Positions 125 to 42,679 of a DNA stretch of 42,679 bases are shown here, in pieces. The stretch comes from a virus: IMG/VR virus record IMGVR_UViG_3300048592_000419, positions 1 through 42,679 of that record. One strand, 5' to 3'. A model generated the notes under the pieces. That model did no database searches. It had not been told where the DNA came from and saw only the letters and a list, made by a program, of their open reading frames with translations. Within the stretch, counting starts at the first letter, position 1. Every line of letters starts with the position of its first letter. A program made the position numbers and the translations under genes.

Positions 125-202
125 ATGATTCGTCTTGCATATTATTTTTTCGGCTTCGTCTTAATAGTTAAGCCCTTGCCCGGCTCAATATCTACCTGGT
201 AG
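125..202 (+). CDS. Candidate 25-residue hydrophobic peptide, antisense to the membrane-protein gene
   Basis: The ATG at 125 is preceded by AACTAGAACA, the same start context that marks the early genes at 3026, 3426 and 5038. The frame reads MIRLAYYFFGFVLIVKPLPG and five more residues. The first 17 residues could form one membrane helix. Upstream lie a promoter-like sequence (3-33) and a strong hairpin (79-112), so promoter, structured leader and small hydrophobic peptide come in the order seen in type I toxins. That is only an analogy. The frame overlaps the 3' end of the opposite gene and could be an accident of a misjoined contig end. Confidence 0.3.
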   Translation: MIRLAYYFFGFVLIVKPLPGSISTW

Positions 203-1716
203 CCTTTCATCTTTAGCTCATCGACAAGCGCCTGCGCTGCCGGCTTGTTGCCTGCCTTAAGGTGGCGCTTTATCGTTACTCTCATACGGTCGATGTACAT
301 TTGCGCCGGGGTCTTATTTCTGTTTGTCGCTTTTTGTCGCTTTTTTTGTGGGATAGTTTGTCGCTTAATTTGTCGCTCTTTTTCCGGCTCGTTTGTCGCT
401 TCTCCAATTTGCGACACAAAAGCGATATTTTCACTACGTGCGACATCTTGCGACACAAAAGCGACATTTTGTAAGTCTGTCGCTGATTTGTCGCTTTTTT
501 TATTTAGCGCAAAAGGAGCGACAACGACGCGTGAATTAGCCGCCGGTTTGTCGCTAAAATTTTGCGACACGTTGTCGCTTTTTTCGGTTGTCGCTTTTTT
601 GTCGGGCGTGCCTATTTGCCCGTCCCCGTCCAGGTCGATACGCCACTGCCTTTCTAAAGCGTATACGCCCTTCCATGCCAGCGCTGTAAAAAAGCCCCAT
701 AGTTTTATAAATATTGCCGGGAATAATTTTACGCCACGCCATAGCCCCATAGCCCCGCTTTCTGTGCCTTGCAACATATCGTCAGTGATGCGGTCGCTTA
801 TCTTTGCAAAGACGCCCGCAAACGGGCTTTCGTATTCGATGTCATGTTTGCGCTTAAACTGCGCAAGGAAAAGAGAGAGGAACCAATACAGCACACCAAA
901 GGCAATATCTAAAAATCCGAGGGTGAAATTATAGACGCCGGTTAGTTGCTCGTTGCGGGCTACCTTGTTTTCGAGTATGCGGTTAAGCGTTGACAGGTAC
1001 GCGGTATCTTGCGCCGTACTCGCAATAAATGCCTCGCTTGCGGCTTTGGTTTCCATCCGGGCTTCGGCTTCTAACCTTGCGGCCTCTTCCCTCGCTTTTC
1101 GGATGCCGTCACGGTACGCCCTAAATTTGCGATCTGACATTACCCATTTGCTTTCCCCACTGCGATACAACCGGGCCACTTCTTCACCTTTGCTATTAAT
1201 TGCCGCATCAATCAGGCTTTGGCCTTGTCGCCTGGCTTCCCTTATCCGCCTGGCTTCGCTGTTTGCTATGCGGTTCTTTTCCGCCTCTAATTTAGCCGTC
1301 CGGGCTGCCCGTTCGCCCTGTGCCGTTTCGATTGCGTTTATTTCCGCATCCCCTTGCACCTCTCCGACTATCGCAGCGGCCATAGGGGTACGACTAAAAT
1401 AGGTTAGGGTTGTTGTAGCAAAAAAACGGGCGTGAGCTAATAGGGTGAGGATGACAAACGCCCACACGCCTAGCGCCTGCCTGTATGCTATGCTTTTTTC
1501 ACTCTTACCGAAGCCTAGCAAAGATGCATCCATCAAACGCCCGTTGAACGCGTCTATTACGATAACCGAAACGCCGGTTATAAAAATGCGCAAGATAGGG
1601 CTAAAATTAGCCGTTGCGGTATAAAATAGATACCCTGTTGTTGCTGCTAAGTAGATAGCAAGCATTAGGCGTATATACCAAACCTGCCGGGCTTGTTGTT
1701 TTAGTTGCTGTTCCAT
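142..1716 (-). CDS. Membrane protein with coiled coil and EF-hand-like loop, 524 aa
   Basis: This is the last gene of the leftward operon and its family was not recognised. Hydrophobic segments lie near residues 13-33, 41-57, 82-100 and 262-286, with a further one at 330-352. Residues 125-225 are rich in Ala, Glu and Arg and look like a long helical coiled coil between TM3 and TM4. DLDGDGQIG at 361-369 fits a calcium-binding EF-hand or dockerin loop. The tail from 370 is hydrophilic and basic, ending in KTKPKK. The coding DNA for residues about 370-465 is packed with the word TGTCGC or its complement, in all three frames, so this stretch may serve as DNA as well as protein. The start ATG follows AAAACAGCAGAAA, a usual A-rich context here. 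The product is probably an inner-membrane protein of the early phase. Confidence 0.8.
   Translation of the reverse strand: MEQQLKQQARQVWYIRLMLAIYLAATTGYLFYTATANFSPILRIFITGVSVIVIDAFNGRLMDASLLGFGKSEKSIAYRQALGVWAFVILTLLAHARFFATTTLTYFSRTPMAAAIVGEVQGDAEINAIETAQGERAARTAKLEAEKNRIANSEARRIREARRQGQSLIDAAINSKGEEVARLYRSGESKWVMSDRKFRAYRDGIRKAREEAARLEAEARMETKAASEAFIASTAQDTAYLSTLNRILENKVARNEQLTGVYNFTLGFLDIAFGVLYWFLSLFLAQFKRKHDIEYESPFAGVFAKISDRITDDMLQGTESGAMGLWRGVKLFPAIFIKLWGFFTALAWKGVYALERQWRIDLDGDGQIGTPDKKATTEKSDNVSQNFSDKPAANSRVVVAPFALNKKSDKSATDLQNVAFVSQDVARSENIAFVSQIGEATNEPEKERQIKRQTIPQKKRQKATNRNKTPAQMYIDRMRVTIKRHLKAGNKPAAQALVDELKMKGYQVDIEPGKGLTIKTKPKK
323..605. repeat. Dense array of TTTGTCGC words in both orientations
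   Basis: TGTCGC ends at 330, 340, 364, 376, 399, 483, 494, 554, 578 and 594. Its complement GCGACA starts at 411, 440, 450, 461, 518 and 564, giving 16 copies in 270 bases where about 0.1 is expected by chance. Seven copies are the full octamer TTTGTCGC. A one-base variant occurs at 598-605 and a GCGATA variant at 422-427. In the host gene the word is read as SDK, KRQ and ATN, so the repetition is at the DNA level. The spacing is irregular. The function is unknown; a binding array for a replication, partition or packaging protein is the simplest idea. Confidence 0.9.
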
Positions 1717-1735: not shown

Positions 1736-2023
1736 TTAAGGTTTATTTTCTTGCTCAAACGCATGCCAGAGTATATCTGTCAATCCGCAAGCATCTGCCT
1801 CGTCTTGTATTCTAATCATGACCTCCCGCTCTGGAAGGGGCCCGAGTGTACTTAAATCTACATAGGCCTCGGCCATGCGAATTTCAGAAGCGCACAGGCT
1901 TTTAAAATCCCGGAGTTGTTCTTTGGGGTCGGCTAAAATTGTGTGATTTAGCATTTTGCCCCTTATTTCGCCTGCTTTATAGCAAGCAAACATTAGTTCG
2001 ATTAAAACGGTATGTTCTCTCAT
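1736..2023 (-). CDS. Hypothetical protein, 95 aa
   Basis: This is the third gene of the leftward operon. Its ATG overlaps the stop of the upstream membrane-protein gene in an ATGA arrangement (2020-2023), which suggests coupled translation. The protein is soluble and mostly helical by composition, with acidic and hydrophobic residues alternating in the second half (for example REVMIRIQDEADACGLTDIL). It has no signal peptide, membrane segment or recognised motif. The start context is AAAACAGAAAAT. The family was not recognised; a real gene is supported by the tight operon packing. Confidence 0.65.
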   Translation of the reverse strand: MREHTVLIELMFACYKAGEIRGKMLNHTILADPKEQLRDFKSLCASEIRMAEAYVDLSTLGPLPEREVMIRIQDEADACGLTDILWHAFEQENKP

Positions 2024-2474: not shown

Positions 2475-2690
2475 TTATTTTAATACATAAGTACATTGCG
2501 TTTGCCTAAAATCCCGTTTGATAGTGCCCGTTTTTGAAATCTTAGAAAGCAGTGAAGCCGCTGCAAATCTATATTGCCTGCAATTATCAGAATAGATTAA
2601 AGGCCATTCTAATACGATGTAAACAGCGTCAGGTGTAATGCTGCCGTGCTTTTTTATAAATTCTACTATTTTATATTGGGCAATTGTCAT
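2475..2690 (-). CDS. Possible small winged-helix DNA-binding protein, 71 aa
   Basis: This is the first gene of the leftward operon. Its start codon sits at the edge of the inverted repeat, whose last two bases are the A and T of this ATG. The protein begins MTIAQYKIVEFIKKHGSITP and continues with a helix-like stretch, then SLLSKISKTGTIKR. That layout (helix, helix, recognition helix, then a wing ending in TIKR) resembles small winged-helix regulators, but the assignment is weak. The promoter at 2706-2736 leaves a leader of only about ten bases. If it is a regulator, its own promoter in the repeat arm would be the obvious target. Confidence 0.6.
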   Translation of the reverse strand: MTIAQYKIVEFIKKHGSITPDAVYIVLEWPLIYSDNCRQYRFAAASLLSKISKTGTIKRDFRQTQCTYVLK

Positions 2691-2738
2691 TTAGTTAAAA
2701 TTGTGTTAAAGTATCATAAAAGAGTTTAGTTGTCAACC
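2689..2738 (-). repeat. Right arm of exact 50-bp inverted repeat
   Basis: This is the exact reverse complement of 1-50. It fills the gap between the divergent leftward and rightward operons and contains the leftward promoter. The arm ends two bases into the start codon of the 71-residue gene. The next base outwards (2739) cannot be compared because the other arm meets the window edge. Confidence 0.95.
2706..2736 (-). promoter_or_regulatory. Promoter of the leftward operon
   Basis: On the minus strand TTGACA begins at 2736 and TACTTTAA lies at 2713-2706. TTG and TA are 20 bases apart, the same spacing as the promoter at 28053-28083. The ATG of the first leftward gene is 16 bases past the -7 element, so the leader is very short. 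The sequence lies entirely inside the repeat arm. Confidence 0.65.
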
Positions 2739-4599: not shown

Positions 4600-5016
4600 G
4601 TGGAATACAAATCAAAAATGCAATGTTTTATCCCGGTAGAAGTCCGGGAGGCAATAGATACGTTACAACAAGAAATGCGGCTCAAAGGCATATCCCGCCG
4701 GGAAAGCTCAATTAGTGGTATTTTTACCGCGCTCGTAAAAGAGGGGATAAAGCTATATGAACAGCCCTCCGCTAACCTTGTAGCGCCAAACCACGCCTTT
4801 GGCCCCAAAACGATAAACATCCCCCTCCCCCGCGAACTGCGGATTAAGGTAGCGCAAATTTCCGCCGGGGCGGAAAAGCCAAACCGCGAAATGGTGAATA
4901 TTTTAGCGTGGTGGGGCATTCCCGCCTTTGCGCAATACGTACACGCTCTTACGTACCCGATTGCACCGGCGGAAAAGATCGGGCGACCAAGAAAGCAAAA
5001 AACAGGGTGCAATTAA
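4600..5016 (+). CDS. Tandem ribbon-helix-helix-like DNA-binding protein with AT-hook, 138 aa
   Basis: Two similar blocks are visible. KMQCFIPVEVREAIDTLQQ (from residue 6) and TINIPLPRELRIKVAQIS (from about 70) each look like a short strand followed by a helix, and each leads to a second helix (ESSISGIFTALVKEGIKL and REMVNILAWWGIPAF). This suggests two fused ribbon-helix-helix folds, which normally act as dimers. IGRPRKQK near the C terminus resembles an AT-hook for the DNA minor groove. The start is GTG at 4600 in the context ACCTAACAAC; an ATG at 4618 is an alternative. It could be an early regulator. The fold is inferred from pattern only. Confidence 0.65.
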   Translation: MEYKSKMQCFIPVEVREAIDTLQQEMRLKGISRRESSISGIFTALVKEGIKLYEQPSANLVAPNHAFGPKTINIPLPRELRIKVAQISAGAEKPNREMVNILAWWGIPAFAQYVHALTYPIAPAEKIGRPRKQKTGCN

Positions 5017-6533: not shown

Positions 6534-7229
6534 ATGACACAACAACCGTCTTACTACTCAATTTTACCCGCCATTGTGAGGTATTCAAAGAATCTCACAT
6601 TCTTCCAGAAAATTCTATTTAGTGAAATTACGGCTCTTGCAAACAAGGACGGGTATTGTAGCGCCGGGAACGGCTATTTTGCGGAGATTTACGGAATGGA
6701 AGAAGAAACCATTAGCCGCGCAATCTCCAAGCTGGCAAAAGAGGGGACTATTAAGGTTTTTATAAATAAAGAAGCAGGTAATAAGCGAAGAATTTACCCA
6801 TGTGATCAAGTTACCCTATTGACAAATTTATCAATACCTATTGACAAAAAAGTCAATACCCCTATTGACAAAAAAGTCAATATAATAATACAAGAGTATA
6901 ATAATACAAGAGTTAATAATCTCTCTACTAACGTAGAGAGCGCAAAGTCAAAAATTGACTACCTGAAAACAGATGAATTAAAAACTACTTTAAAGAAAAC
7001 ATTCCCCGCCGTTGGCGTGGACATGGAGATTGAAACCGCTATCGATTGGCTTAAGTCAACCGGCAAGCGATATAAGAACTATGAATCCTTTATGCGCAAT
7101 TGGTGCCGTCGGGAACAAAAGCGATTGTTAGAGCTTGCAAAGAAGAACGGAACAGCTTACACCCCACCCGTTATAGACACTACCCGCCCGGACAACGCCG
7201 TGCCACGCAATAATATGAACCTTGTATGA
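6534..7229 (+). CDS. Helix-turn-helix replication initiator (O-like), 231 aa
   Basis: The N-terminal 85 residues have the layout of phage replisome-organiser helix-turn-helix domains. YYSILPAIVRYSKNLTFFQK leads in, and NGYFAEIYGMEEETISRAIS then LAKEGTIKV form the recognition helix and wing. Residues about 95-140 are a linker (IPIDKKVNTPIDKKVN and an Asn-rich run) whose DNA carries three 20-bp iterons, tandem AT-rich repeats and an inverted repeat. The C-terminal part (150-215) is a helical domain probably used to contact the helicase loader or DnaB. Origin repeats inside the initiator gene are the lambda O arrangement. The DnaB gene lies 280 bases downstream. The start follows AAAAATTCGGAAC, just past the RNA terminator hairpin. 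Confidence 0.8.
   Translation: MTQQPSYYSILPAIVRYSKNLTFFQKILFSEITALANKDGYCSAGNGYFAEIYGMEEETISRAISKLAKEGTIKVFINKEAGNKRRIYPCDQVTLLTNLSIPIDKKVNTPIDKKVNIIIQEYNNTRVNNLSTNVESAKSKIDYLKTDELKTTLKKTFPAVGVDMEIETAIDWLKSTGKRYKNYESFMRNWCRREQKRLLELAKKNGTAYTPPVIDTTRPDNAVPRNNMNLV
6817..6960. other. Probable replication origin with iterons inside the initiator gene
   Basis: Three 20-bp iterons, each an inverted repeat with TATTGA and TCAATA ends, lie at 6817-6836, 6839-6858 and 6863-6882. The last two are identical (TATTGACAAAAAAGTCAATA). They are followed by a perfect 17-base AT-rich direct repeat with a 16-base period (6881-6897 and 6897-6913), a perfect inverted repeat CTCTCTAC-TAAC-GTAGAGAG (6921-6940) and AGTCAA-AAA-TTGACT (6946-6960), the same half-sites in reverse order. 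Iterons next to an easily melted AT-rich stretch are the usual form of an iteron origin. Confidence 0.75.
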
Positions 7230-9003: not shown

Positions 9004-9309
9004 ATGAAAAAGAAAGCAGAACTTTTACAAACCGCTTTAAAAATGATGAAGCGGCAACTAAAAGGTGGGGGCGTAGAGTTGCCGACGGGCGAAGTTGTGG
9101 TTATCGACTTAGACGAAGCCCGCGCCCTAGCCGAAGCCCTGGAGTCGCTGCGGTGGGTTGCGGTTTACGAAAGCGACGAACGCAACGAGATAGGCATGGA
9201 ATACGTAGAGTTTGAAGATGCCGACTATATAGGCAGGCTAGCGGAAGGCGTTGATTATCTTGAAACCGTCGGCATCATCCGACTAAAAGACGAAAACGAT
9301 GAAAACTAA
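9004..9309 (+). CDS. Hypothetical acidic protein, 101 aa
   Basis: The start has the canonical early context (TTAAAAACAGAACA) and follows the terminator hairpin after dnaB. The protein begins with a basic helix (MKKKAELLQTALKMMKRQLK), then a strand stretch (VELPTGEVVVIDLDEARALA). It becomes strongly acidic toward the end (VEFEDADYIGRLAEGVDYLE). It is probably a small soluble helper; no family was recognised. The end overlaps the next start by 11 bases. Confidence 0.65.
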   Translation: MKKKAELLQTALKMMKRQLKGGGVELPTGEVVVIDLDEARALAEALESLRWVAVYESDERNEIGMEYVEFEDADYIGRLAEGVDYLETVGIIRLKDENDEN

Positions 9310-9775
9310 AGCATCAACAACCGCCCACGCTCCCGGCACCACGCGCCGACAGTCGCAAGAGGCCTTAATCCTCGCTTGGATTATGCAGTTACCGCAAACG
9401 TTAACCACACTCGCACAGCTAACCGGATTACCTAAAAACACAATCAGCGGGCGGCTATCCGATTTACAAGCGAAGGGAATAGTAGTCGGCTTTGAAACCG
9501 CGCCGGAGGTGACGAGCCGGGGGCACATGATAAACGTCACGGTGTACGATTTTGAGCCGGACGAACACCGGCAGATCGACCACGCATACAACCGCCGCCG
9601 GAATTTGGCCATTGCTCGAATCGAAAGCAGCCTAAAGAACGACCTAGAGTTTTTGCCGCAATTCCTTGTGGCTGCTATGCGCGCTTTTCTGCAACTTGAA
9701 AAAGAATTAGGGCGTCTTCACAGCGATTACCAACAGCCGGGGCAGAGGCCGCCGGATAAATTCACGGGCAAATGA
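9299..9775 (+). CDS. Winged helix-turn-helix protein, 158 aa
   Basis: Residues 18-70 form a winged helix: SQEALILAWIMQLPQTLTTL, then AQLTGLPKNTISGRLSDLQA as the turn and recognition helix, then a wing with GIVVGFETAPE. The remainder is helical and basic (DHAYNRRRNLAIARIESSLK) with a Gln/Pro-rich tail. It overlaps the preceding gene and overlaps the methyltransferase start by four bases (ATGA), so these genes are one translational unit. It could regulate the early-to-middle switch or assist the methyltransferase; neither is shown by the sequence. Confidence 0.7.
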   Translation: MKTKASTTAHAPGTTRRQSQEALILAWIMQLPQTLTTLAQLTGLPKNTISGRLSDLQAKGIVVGFETAPEVTSRGHMINVTVYDFEPDEHRQIDHAYNRRRNLAIARIESSLKNDLEFLPQFLVAAMRAFLQLEKELGRLHSDYQQPGQRPPDKFTGK

Positions 9776-12791: not shown

Positions 12792-13847
12792 ATGCAGACT
12801 AAATTTCAAACAGAGATTAGGGCCATTCATAGGAGCGATATAAAAAACGCGCCTTATAACCCCCGTATACATGGTAAACACGCACAGCAAGCAGTAAAAG
12901 ACAACATTAAGCGCCACGGGCTTATGTCTACATTGACATGGAACGAAAGAACCGGAAATTTAGTAGGGGGCCATATGAGGCTAAAGCAACTTGATGCACT
13001 CGAATCAAAGACAAAAGGCGATTATACGCTAAGCGTGTCAGTTGTGAACTTATCCGACAAAGAAGAAAAAGAGCAAAACATTTTCCTCAACTCAACTAAA
13101 GTACAAGGAGAGTACGACGTCACGGCGCTTGCTGAATTAATGCAAGATTTAGACACCGTAGCCGCCGGGCTTGATTCAATAGACTTCGGGTCACCTGAAA
13201 TAGATTCAATGTTTGGTGATGTCGAAAAGCCAGAAAAAAAGACTGCCCGCGAATGGGTGCCGGATTTGATATTTGAAAGCAATAATTCGTTTGACATTCC
13301 AACTTTAAAGCTATCGCATTGCGCCAAACAAGTAGGCAATCCATTTGTACCATACGGGTATAATTCAAGGGACGCCAAAAACATAGGAACATACCATTTT
13401 TATGTGGATGATTACAGGTTTAATGCGATATGGGACAACCCCACAAAGATTATAAATTCCGGGTGTTCTGGAATTGTTGAACCTAATTTAAGTTTATTTG
13501 ACACTACGCCAATAGCATACGGAATCCATTTGATCTACAAAAAGAGATGGATAGCCAGATACCTGCAATCTTTCGGGATTGGCGTCTTTGTAGATTTGAA
13601 TGTTTCGTATAAGTTCAGCGAATACAACGTGCTGGGTGTTCCTGTCGGCTGGCATTCATTTGCTACCAGGGGATATAGCGACCGTATAGAGGGCCTGGAA
13701 AAAGAATTAGCATTAGCCAGGGCTATATCAAACGGAAGTGATAATTTTACGTTTATTGTGTATGGTGGAGGCAAAAAAGTAAAAGAGGTTGCAAACTCCG
13801 AGAATATCACGTACATTGAACAGGTAATGACAGACAAAAATAGGTAA
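12792..13847 (+). CDS. ParB-like N-terminal domain fused to DUF4417, 351 aa
   Basis: Residues about 10-75 match a ParB/Srx-type fold: IKNAPYNPRIHGKHAQQAVK, then IKRHGLMSTL and TGNLVGGHMRLKQLDALE, including the conserved GHxR. From about 165 the protein resembles DUF4417: FDTTPIAYGIHLIYKKRWIA, then FGIGVFVDLNVSYKF, GVPVGWHSFATRGYSDRIEG and a terminal TFIVYGGGKK. ParB folds bind or hydrolyse nucleotides and are common in phages beside methyltransferases and terminases; DUF4417 has no known function. The start follows AAATGAACAACC just after the tRNA-like element. It may act in DNA recognition for packaging, but this is inference. Confidence 0.75.
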   Translation: MQTKFQTEIRAIHRSDIKNAPYNPRIHGKHAQQAVKDNIKRHGLMSTLTWNERTGNLVGGHMRLKQLDALESKTKGDYTLSVSVVNLSDKEEKEQNIFLNSTKVQGEYDVTALAELMQDLDTVAAGLDSIDFGSPEIDSMFGDVEKPEKKTAREWVPDLIFESNNSFDIPTLKLSHCAKQVGNPFVPYGYNSRDAKNIGTYHFYVDDYRFNAIWDNPTKIINSGCSGIVEPNLSLFDTTPIAYGIHLIYKKRWIARYLQSFGIGVFVDLNVSYKFSEYNVLGVPVGWHSFATRGYSDRIEGLEKELALARAISNGSDNFTFIVYGGGKKVKEVANSENITYIEQVMTDKNR

Positions 13848-14500: not shown

Positions 14501-14713
14501 ATGAAAAACGACGAAGCTAAAACAGAAACCATGTCAATGTTTCAAGACGTACCACCTGATGAATTTGACAAATTACTCACACTTGGCCAGGGGTTAATAA
14601 GCAACATCAAGCCAGGAATCGACAATGTATACACAGAATCAGAAAAACTTGCAATCGAAATTGCCTCCACATACAATTTGTTAAACGAAATTCCGGTTAA
14701 TGGCACGCCCTAA
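14501..14713 (+). CDS. Hypothetical acidic protein, 70 aa
   Basis: The start follows AAACACTAATAAC. The protein is acidic and helical (MKNDEAKTETMSMFQDVPPD, then LTLGQGLISNIKPGIDNVYT). Its end overlaps the small terminase start by 14 bases, so the two are likely to be translated together. No motif was recognised; an accessory packaging role is suggested only by position. Confidence 0.6.
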   Translation: MKNDEAKTETMSMFQDVPPDEFDKLLTLGQGLISNIKPGIDNVYTESEKLAIEIASTYNLLNEIPVNGTP

Positions 14714-15077
14714 GGCTGAAATAGATTGGGAAAAGGTAGATAGCTACCTGCGGGCACAGTGCGACGGCACTGCGATCGCTTCACTTTTCGGCATTCACCC
14801 GGACACGCTTTATAACGCCTGTGAGGCTGAACATAAAACGGGTTTTTCTGCCTATGCGGCTACAAAAAGAGGCGAAGGTAAAGAGTTGCTCCGCATGAAG
14901 ATGTATCAATCTGCAATGAAGGGCGACAAAACGATGCAAATATGGCTTTCTAAGCAGTATTTAGGGTTTAGCGACAAACAGGCCGTTGACCACACCACAG
15001 GCGGCGAAAAGTTCAACGGCTTTGACTTCCTCTCACCAATAGCCGCGCCGGATGACAGCGACAACCCAAGCACATAG
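14700..15077 (+). CDS. terS: Terminase small subunit, 125 aa
   Basis: This is the DNA-recognition subunit of the packaging motor. Residues 1-45 carry a helix-turn-helix (EIDWEKVDSYLRAQCDGTAI, then ASLFGIHPDTLYNACEAEHK). A helical stretch with LLRMKMYQSAMKGDKTMQIW and LSKQYLGFSDKQ follows, the block typical of phage small terminases. The C terminus (FDFLSPIAAPDDSDNP) overlaps the large-subunit start by 26 bases. It presumably recognises the packaging site, which has not been identified in this window. Confidence 0.85.
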   Translation: MARPKAEIDWEKVDSYLRAQCDGTAIASLFGIHPDTLYNACEAEHKTGFSAYAATKRGEGKELLRMKMYQSAMKGDKTMQIWLSKQYLGFSDKQAVDHTTGGEKFNGFDFLSPIAAPDDSDNPST

Positions 15078-32966: not shown

Positions 32967-33554
32967 ATGCCTTTACTTAACGAATATATCGACCTATGCG
33001 GCCCGGCAACGTTCGGGGCGCTAGATGTGGAAAGCGGGTGTGCGACTTGTCCGGTTGCACCTCCGCTTTCCCAAATCGTTAAGGTATTCGCCGCGCCACA
33101 CGGGGCGTATGTGCCGACGGACTGGGAAGATCAGGCCGACTTTTTTAGCCGGATAGATAACGCGGATATTGCCGACGCTTATATCAAATCCATTGTCGGG
33201 AAAGGCAGTTTAGAAATTCAAGACGTAACCACTAACGCCGGGCGCACCTATCAAATGGTATGCCGCCGGGTGTTTACGCTTGAACACATTTGCCCGGTCT
33301 CGCAGCTTGTCTATGACTTTTCCCGGACGTTTGAAAGAAACTGGACGGGCTTTCGCATCTGGTATTTGACCCTTGGCGGTTATCTATACGGCGGTCAAAA
33401 CGGCATCCAGGTACATTACACAGGGGCTGTACTGGCTAAAGAAGCCGAAGAGGATTCACATGAAGAAAGCGTACTTCGTTTTGTGTGGTACGCGGACGGT
33501 TCACCGGATAGATCGTATGTACCTGAATTACTCGGAAATGAGGCTGTGGTATGA
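32967..33554 (+). CDS. Tail-tube-like protein, second paralogue, 195 aa
   Basis: The start at 32967 follows GTGTATAACG; the frame is open upstream but overlaps the first copy. The core reads TYQMVCRRVFTLEH, SRTFERNWTGFRIWYLTLGG and YLYGGQNGIQV, and the end is VWYADGSPDRSYVPELLG. It is nearly the same as the third copy in these blocks and less like the first. It probably forms tail tube or another ring-like structure. The stop overlaps the next start (ATGA). Confidence 0.7.
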   Translation: MPLLNEYIDLCGPATFGALDVESGCATCPVAPPLSQIVKVFAAPHGAYVPTDWEDQADFFSRIDNADIADAYIKSIVGKGSLEIQDVTTNAGRTYQMVCRRVFTLEHICPVSQLVYDFSRTFERNWTGFRIWYLTLGGYLYGGQNGIQVHYTGAVLAKEAEEDSHEESVLRFVWYADGSPDRSYVPELLGNEAVV

Positions 33555-34381
33555 TCGGCGAATACATACGCCTGACCGGCCCGGCAACCTTTACGGCACT
33601 TGAGGTATGCGACAACTGCCAGACACTTACCGCGCCGCCACGCAACGAAATAGCGCTTGTTTTCATAGCCCCGCATGGATGCAGGACGCCGAAAAACTGG
33701 ACAGATGACGCCGAATTTTTAACATTGATTGACAATACCGATACGACCGGCGAATTTATGCACGTCGTTACCGGACGGGGGAGTTTAGAGGCGACTGATA
33801 TAACGGCCAACCTTCGCACATATACAGAGCTTTGCCGCCGTGTATTTACCCTGACACACGTCATAGAGGCCACCGCAAATAATTATGCACTGGCTCGCAC
33901 GTTTGAGCGCAACTACACAGGTTTCCGCATCTGGTTTATGACCATTGACGGATATTTGTACGGCGGGCAAACGGGCATACAGGTACGATTTACGACGGCA
34001 AATTTAGGCAAAGACGGAGACAGCGAGGGTGTAGAGAATTTCCCGTTGACACTTGTCTGGTACGCGGACGGTTCACCGGGCCGGACATATAGCCCGCTAT
34101 TGATCGGTAAAGAAGATGAACCAGAGGAAGAATATCAAATCTTTGATATGTATAGGCAGCAATTTACAACGCACAATTCGCAGACGCTGACCTGGACGCA
34201 AAACAGCGGCAACCTACCCACCAACGTAACGGTGCGGGCGTGGGTTTTTATGAACGGACAAAAGCTACTGCCTTCACAGTATAGCGTGGTAGCGAACACC
34301 GGGCCAGGGGAATCGACTTTTACAATCGGCGTTGACACGCACTTTGACGGCGCTAATTACGAGGTATACACGTTCAACTAA
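33551..34381 (+). CDS. Tail-tube-like protein, third paralogue with extra C-terminal domain, 276 aa
   Basis: The core is shared with the second copy: TYTELCRRVFTLTH, ARTFERNYTGFRIWFMTIDG and YLYGGQTGIQV, then VWYADGSPGRTYSPLLIG. A C-terminal domain of about 80 residues follows, from EEYQIFDMYRQQFTTHNSQT. It is beta-rich and could be an Ig-like decoration domain exposed on the tail. The addition of such a domain to one of several tube-type copies is known in other phages. The stop is eight bases before the fibre gene. Confidence 0.7.
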   Translation: MIGEYIRLTGPATFTALEVCDNCQTLTAPPRNEIALVFIAPHGCRTPKNWTDDAEFLTLIDNTDTTGEFMHVVTGRGSLEATDITANLRTYTELCRRVFTLTHVIEATANNYALARTFERNYTGFRIWFMTIDGYLYGGQTGIQVRFTTANLGKDGDSEGVENFPLTLVWYADGSPGRTYSPLLIGKEDEPEEEYQIFDMYRQQFTTHNSQTLTWTQNSGNLPTNVTVRAWVFMNGQKLLPSQYSVVANTGPGESTFTIGVDTHFDGANYEVYTFN

Positions 34382-42599: not shown

Positions 42600-42679
42600 C
42601 TTGGCTTTTGCGGGGGGGGGGGGGGGGGAAAAAAATTGGGCGCGTTAAAAATGTGCCAATTGGTTTTGTTATCCCCCGC
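42600..42679. other. Low-quality window end with G17 and A7 runs
   Basis: G runs from 42612 to 42628 (17 bases) and is followed by seven A. Such a run is unlike anything else in the window and typical of sequencing or assembly error at a contig end. The leftward operon promoter cannot be read here. Confidence 0.6.

Follow-up and report, generated by a model that had tools for sequence, protein, structure and literature searches.

The window analysed here, an entire IMG/VR virus record of 42,679 bp classed as linear, carries near its left end a dense array of the non-palindromic 6-bp word GCGACA, in both orientations, within the gene for a 524-aa membrane protein. The words appear to be kept for the DNA, independently of the peptide. 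Our reading, with a probability of roughly 0.6, is that of an iteron-like array that loads protein at the DNA level and serves as an accessory to the origin that the phage has elsewhere.

Source of the DNA

The nearest matches of the large terminase are in phages of Bacteroides, Flavobacterium, Cellulophaga and Polaribacter (35–46% identity), and on this basis we assign the source to a Bacteroidota-type phage without a close named relative. The left contig edge is only 0.3 kb from the array, so the contig may lack neighbouring genes, for example one for an integrase or for partition. At the right end (42610–42679), about 18 consecutive G lead into unusual sequence, a stretch that has the look of an artefact of sequencing or assembly. 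A direct repeat of 66 nt, 71% identical, was also noted in the late (structural) region, at 33481–33546 and 34053–34118. The features discussed below are collected in Table 1.

Table 1. Features of the array, its host gene and the surrounding phage genes
Feature	Coordinates	Strand	Basis
GCGACA/TGTCGC array, 16 exact words, mixed orientation	323..605	both	word count
Perfect inverted pair GCGACA-CGT-TGTCGC within the array, single case	564..578	.	sequence
Array host gene, orphan 524-aa protein with several hydrophobic (membrane) segments	142..1716	-	ORF, sequence
C-terminal segment of the 524-aa protein, predicted alone: helix-helix-strand-strand	145..354	-	AF2 pLDDT 79, single sequence
95-aa gene, leftward module, no family	1736..2023	-	family scans
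131-aa gene, leftward module, strongly hydrophobic segment	2020..2415	-	sequence
Inverted repeat, left arm, exactly at the contig edge	1..50	+	exact repeat
Inverted repeat, right arm, just upstream of the rightward genes	2689..2738	-	exact repeat
Candidate binder, 138 aa, weak TraM N-terminal (ribbon-helix-helix type) similarity	4600..5016	+	profile match
Own replication initiator, winged-helix HTH_36, PHROG replication initiation	6534..7229	+	family scans
Three TATTGACA-based palindromic iterons, starts 6817, 6839, 6863	6817..6882	+	repeats in initiator gene
Candidate binder, 158-aa winged-helix (MarR/IclR/HTH_36-like) protein	9299..9775	+	family scans

Sites of the array

The array words span 325–594. 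Ten lie on the plus strand (TGTCGC starts at 325, 335, 359, 371, 394, 478, 489, 549, 573 and 589) and six on the minus strand (411, 440, 450, 461, 518 and 564), in exact agreement with the count of a preliminary description made from the sequence alone. Successive spacings are 10, 24, 12, 23, 17, 29, 10, 11, 17, 11, 29, 31, 15, 9 and 16, and helical phasing among same-orientation sites was not significant (p 0.09). The flanks of the sites are A-rich, with AAAAnnAGCGACAA as the preferred context. The preliminary statement that the word lies mostly within TTTGTCGC proved too strong, the full octamer being present at 7 of the 16 sites; the shorter TTGTCGC occurs at 10.

One-mismatch words around the GCGACA core were not in excess, which means that the core is strict. 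A strict hexamer is also what one would expect of sites for a strand-specific enzyme, either Chi-like or an asymmetric methyltransferase (the complement of GCGACA has no A), and the phage has two DNA methyltransferase genes. However, several of the arrays in initiator genes described below also have a strict core, and we consider enzyme sites very improbable.

The array word is the densest hexamer in the window (16 in 300 bp). A first-order Markov model on window composition predicts a mean of 0.14 words (maximum 3), close to the 0.1 copies estimated previously, and the same model on the region's own composition predicts 0.32 (maximum 6). The window as a whole contains 43 words vs 23.3 expected; since 27 remain elsewhere, near expectation, this excess is the array itself, and the suggested comparison with the rest of the genome revealed no enrichment elsewhere in the window. 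Within the 4.0 Mb of viral loci compared, the array is the largest irregular, mixed-orientation hexamer cluster, a ranking that describes these loci and is not a genome-wide rate, because they were partly picked by word searches.

Independence from the encoded peptide

The words occupy five of the six reading registers of the 524-aa gene. The sense-strand words encode AT at four sites (e.g., ATN), SDN or SDK at three and ERQ or KRQ at three, and those in the opposite orientation encode VSQ (three) and VVA, NVA or DVA (three). With five registers in use and spacings that show no period of a multiple of 3, the words do not fit a tandem protein repeat of the collagen-like KGD or ATN type.

When the peptide of residues 372–467 was held fixed and its synonymous codons were redrawn, with codon usage taken either from elsewhere in the gene or from other genes of the phage, we obtained a mean of 1.4 words and a maximum of 7–8 in 20,000 draws, against the 16 observed. 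Even a shuffle of the region's own synonymous codons yielded a mean of 3.5 and a maximum of 11. The earlier contention that no protein repeat explains the repetition is supported by codon randomisation as well as by the reading registers. Together these results show that the constraint on the sequence is independent of the peptide and support the conclusion that the words are kept for the DNA.

The RNA fold z of the region is −3.8, as expected given that both orientations are present. This value, together with the location in a hydrophilic linker of an orphan gene, would fit an RNA or single-strand structure, or else short template-switch duplications that are not under selection and accumulate in an unconstrained linker. 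Stems, however, do not need ten same-strand copies, and the copies have only the core and short flanks in common, with no long blocks, unlike recent duplications. Both variants therefore seem very unlikely to us.

The host gene and its module

The hydrophobic segments of the 524-aa protein lie at about residues 36–104, 266–284 and 329–347, with a charged stretch between, and the array falls in the hydrophilic linker formed by residues 372–467, ahead of a small C-terminal domain. Foldseek found no match to the fold of this domain at E ≤ 0.001 (the best VIA Z, 6.2, was not meaningful), and the AF2 model, of moderate confidence, displayed no DNA-binding fold. Relatives of the whole protein were sought in phages and plasmids (by tblastn), in viral contigs, in genome contigs, in six related virus records and in 395 genomes from the phylum of a Bacteroidota locus, and none emerged. 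The protein gave no convincing Pfam, PHROG or NCBIfam match, and no match to an initiator or HTH family. Likewise, no convincing relatives of the array DNA were found in phages and plasmids, and a literature search turned up no mention of the GCGACA word in such a sense.

Together with the 95-aa and 131-aa genes, the host gene forms a leftward module of three genes flanked by a 50-bp exact inverted repeat. The position of the left arm may reflect an assembly break at the repeat, or an invertible segment.

The placement of the sites within this module bears on whether they serve as an operator or titration array for a phage transcription regulator. There are multiple exact sites, and small candidate DNA-binding proteins are encoded by the phage; on the other hand, the sites are located about 1.1–1.4 kb downstream of the start codon, at the 3' end of the module's last gene, and no cluster of the word exists elsewhere in the window, the module's upstream region included. 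We accordingly give this explanation little credence.

The phage's own origin

The three iterons inside the initiator gene are 20-bp palindromes, 22 and 24 bp apart, followed by AT-rich DNA (to 6930). By their sequence, the iterons and the AT-rich DNA are probably the phage's own lambda-like origin. Near-identical iterons are present in the homologous initiator gene of locus L155, L144 has TAGTGACAAAAAAGTCACTA, and L534, L542 and many other homologues share this kind of origin.

Across 60 non-redundant loci with related initiators, TATTGA was the commonest in-gene repeat word. A second cluster (at least 8 words) was absent from 59 of these 60 loci, with flanks compared up to 8 kb, and the sole exception concerned an AT-rich word. 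Because the initiator iterons are typical of the family and a second cluster is so rare, the GCGACA array must be regarded as extra and, as far as visible, lineage-specific.

Arrays of the same word in other viral contigs

Many hits of the search for clustered words in viral contigs proved to be trivial repeats at the protein level (collagen-like KGD, ATN). Multi-frame GCGACA arrays were found chiefly in the linkers of O-like replication-initiator genes, where "chiefly" applies to the classified, dense cases, the remainder including chance occurrences of three to four words and genes without matches. In a set of 47 non-redundant multi-frame ORFs, that of the window included, PHROG_270 (replication initiation protein) was matched by 15 and Pfam HTH_36 by 15; some of the others belong by their matches to different families of initiators or helicase loaders. 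Examples of such arrays in initiator genes are those of L002, L070, L015, L240, L270 and L384, while in L368 twenty words lie upstream of a gene that, judged by eye, resembles a winged-helix initiator.

Arrays in initiator genes are not peculiar to TGTCGC, since the permuted control word GACGCA makes them too, at lower density. Loci with at least 6 words marked initiator genes in 17 of 109 cases for the control and in 40 of 119 for GCGACA among the matches listed. These figures do not amount to a measured preference, because the GCGACA count covers the matches listed and about half of the dense GCGACA loci come from a single redundant family of initiators. To judge from these sequences, the class is best described as iteron arrays in coding DNA, with GCGACA as one word of many. 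By analogy with it, the preliminary idea of a multi-site DNA target tucked into coding DNA is supported, whereas its "origin" version is weakened by the phage having its own iterons elsewhere.

One apparent parallel had to be discarded. The L272 gene at 728–1693 (minus strand) encodes a phage membrane protein that ends in a resolvase-type HTH (HTH_7, E 7e-8) and contains seven TGTCGC words, but these lie essentially in one reading frame, and there the peptide explanation stands. The lipoprotein-like genes of L068 and L074, with a few multi-frame words, are only a weak parallel.

Several other arrays were encountered along the way. Non-coding GCGACAAA arrays with a 14-bp period and up to 13 copies occur in the related phage contigs L107 (5319–5494), L046 and L099, some of which also have irregular GGTCAA or ACAGGC arrays. 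In L174 (11974–12246), an irregular, mixed-orientation TACCAC/GTGGTA array, mostly intergenic and also seen in L163, L176, L178 and L180, lies directly downstream of a 413-aa gene near dnaB and is a possible origin. Three perfect GCGACA-AAA-TGTCGC inverted pairs were found in similar non-coding regions (about 200 bp each) of the low-GC contigs L013, L066 and L101; they may be operators or mobile palindromes. Finally, twelve GCAAAA words alternate in orientation at 1572–1871 of L587 (Bacteroides phage Versailles), where the integrase gene ends; they are probably integrase arm sites.

Interpretation of the array

Since GCGACA forms iterons in initiator genes, and upstream of one, the array could be imagined as a second or conditional origin, one that a host initiator or a second phage initiator would fire, for instance while the prophage is plasmid-like; the 158-aa winged-helix protein could then be a second DNA-binding factor. 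Yet the array has a GC content of 42–45% (60-bp windows) and no AT-rich unwinding stretch within, the nearest being at 1–60, at the contig edge, and family scans detected no second initiator gene in the leftward module. A second origin is, in our opinion, quite unlikely.

Another thought is that the words mimic GCGACAAA iterons belonging to rival phages or plasmids and so draw off the rivals' initiators by titration, leading to superinfection exclusion. Other phages (L002, L070, L016, L060 and L084) have iterons of this type in their O-like initiator genes, and the array is apart from the phage's own origin. An artificial plasmid with the cognate lambda origin arrests lambda replication (PMC4488673), which makes such a decoy a testable idea. 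Against it, the host is known only as far as Bacteroidota-type phages, no same-host competitor has been identified, and initiators use many other words, so that the match may be a coincidence. We hold this version to be unlikely.

An iteron-like array that loads protein and is accessory to the origin remains our preferred reading. The GCGACA cores would sit in codons of the hydrophilic linker where the peptide tolerates them; a putative sequence-specific protein, encoded by the phage or by the host, would load many sites at once; and the leftward module would then end in a patch of nucleoprotein. Both the protein binding and the accessory status with respect to the main origin are what we infer. 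In our view the likeliest role, which takes up about half of the probability given to this reading, is that a binder encoded by the phage controls or anchors the genome; a titration or decoy role comes next. What speaks against an iteron-like nature is that the irregular spacing and mixed orientation are unlike most initiator iterons.

Besides the 138-aa and 158-aa proteins, the C-terminal domain of the 524-aa host protein is a further candidate binder, and a protein encoded at 14700–15077 also counts among the phage's putative DNA-binding proteins. AF2 gave no usable structure for the 138-aa ribbon-helix-helix-like protein (pLDDT 42). The "ParB-like" protein of the preliminary description (12792–13847) is, by family match, ParB/DUF4417 nuclease-like and as such provides no evidence for partition. 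Family-library scans covered part of the window's ORFs; among those scanned, we found no relaxase and no ParA or ParM, the motor genes expected beside a partition centromere of the ParABS or ParMRC type, on a contig that may be incomplete, and no integrase, the neighbour expected of an attP arm-site cluster, on a contig that begins so close to the array.

A bolder possibility is that the 524-aa gene constitutes a self-contained anchoring or exclusion device, in which the array in its codons captures initiators (the phage's own or those of rivals) while the protein resides in the membrane; the genome would thereby be tethered, or competitors blocked by an iteron decoy. We deem this improbable.

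Comparison with known systems

The array resembles a lambda-type origin in consisting of several short sites in coding DNA, read in more than one frame within a linker and, here, independent of the peptide; moreover, the GCGACA word is used by several phage initiators. It differs in that the array gene encodes a membrane protein, with the initiator in a separate gene, and in that the array is irregularly spaced and of mixed orientation, the family-typical iterons being in the phage's initiator gene.

Ribbon-helix-helix proteins that bind centromeres or relaxosomes (omega, ParR, TraM) recognize arrays of short asymmetric sites in direct and inverted orientation. The array similarly has short asymmetric sites both ways, and the phage encodes a weakly TraM-like protein, but the partners ParA, ParM and relaxase are missing from the ORFs scanned and the array sites are not contiguous.

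As to ectopic-origin interference (PMC4488673), extra iterons away from the working origin could similarly titrate an initiator, although the lambda case is artificial and involves a cognate origin, whereas the array is without a known cognate initiator. If the decoy reading were true, the array would represent a natural form of what was shown artificially for lambda.

In practical terms, dense multi-frame words in the linker of a winged-helix initiator offer a simple way of finding phage origins. Multi-site arrays embedded in the coding sequence of initiator genes were already known. A denser one, here in the gene for a membrane protein of a phage whose initiator gene has iterons of its own, suggests that phages keep accessory nucleoprotein arrays.
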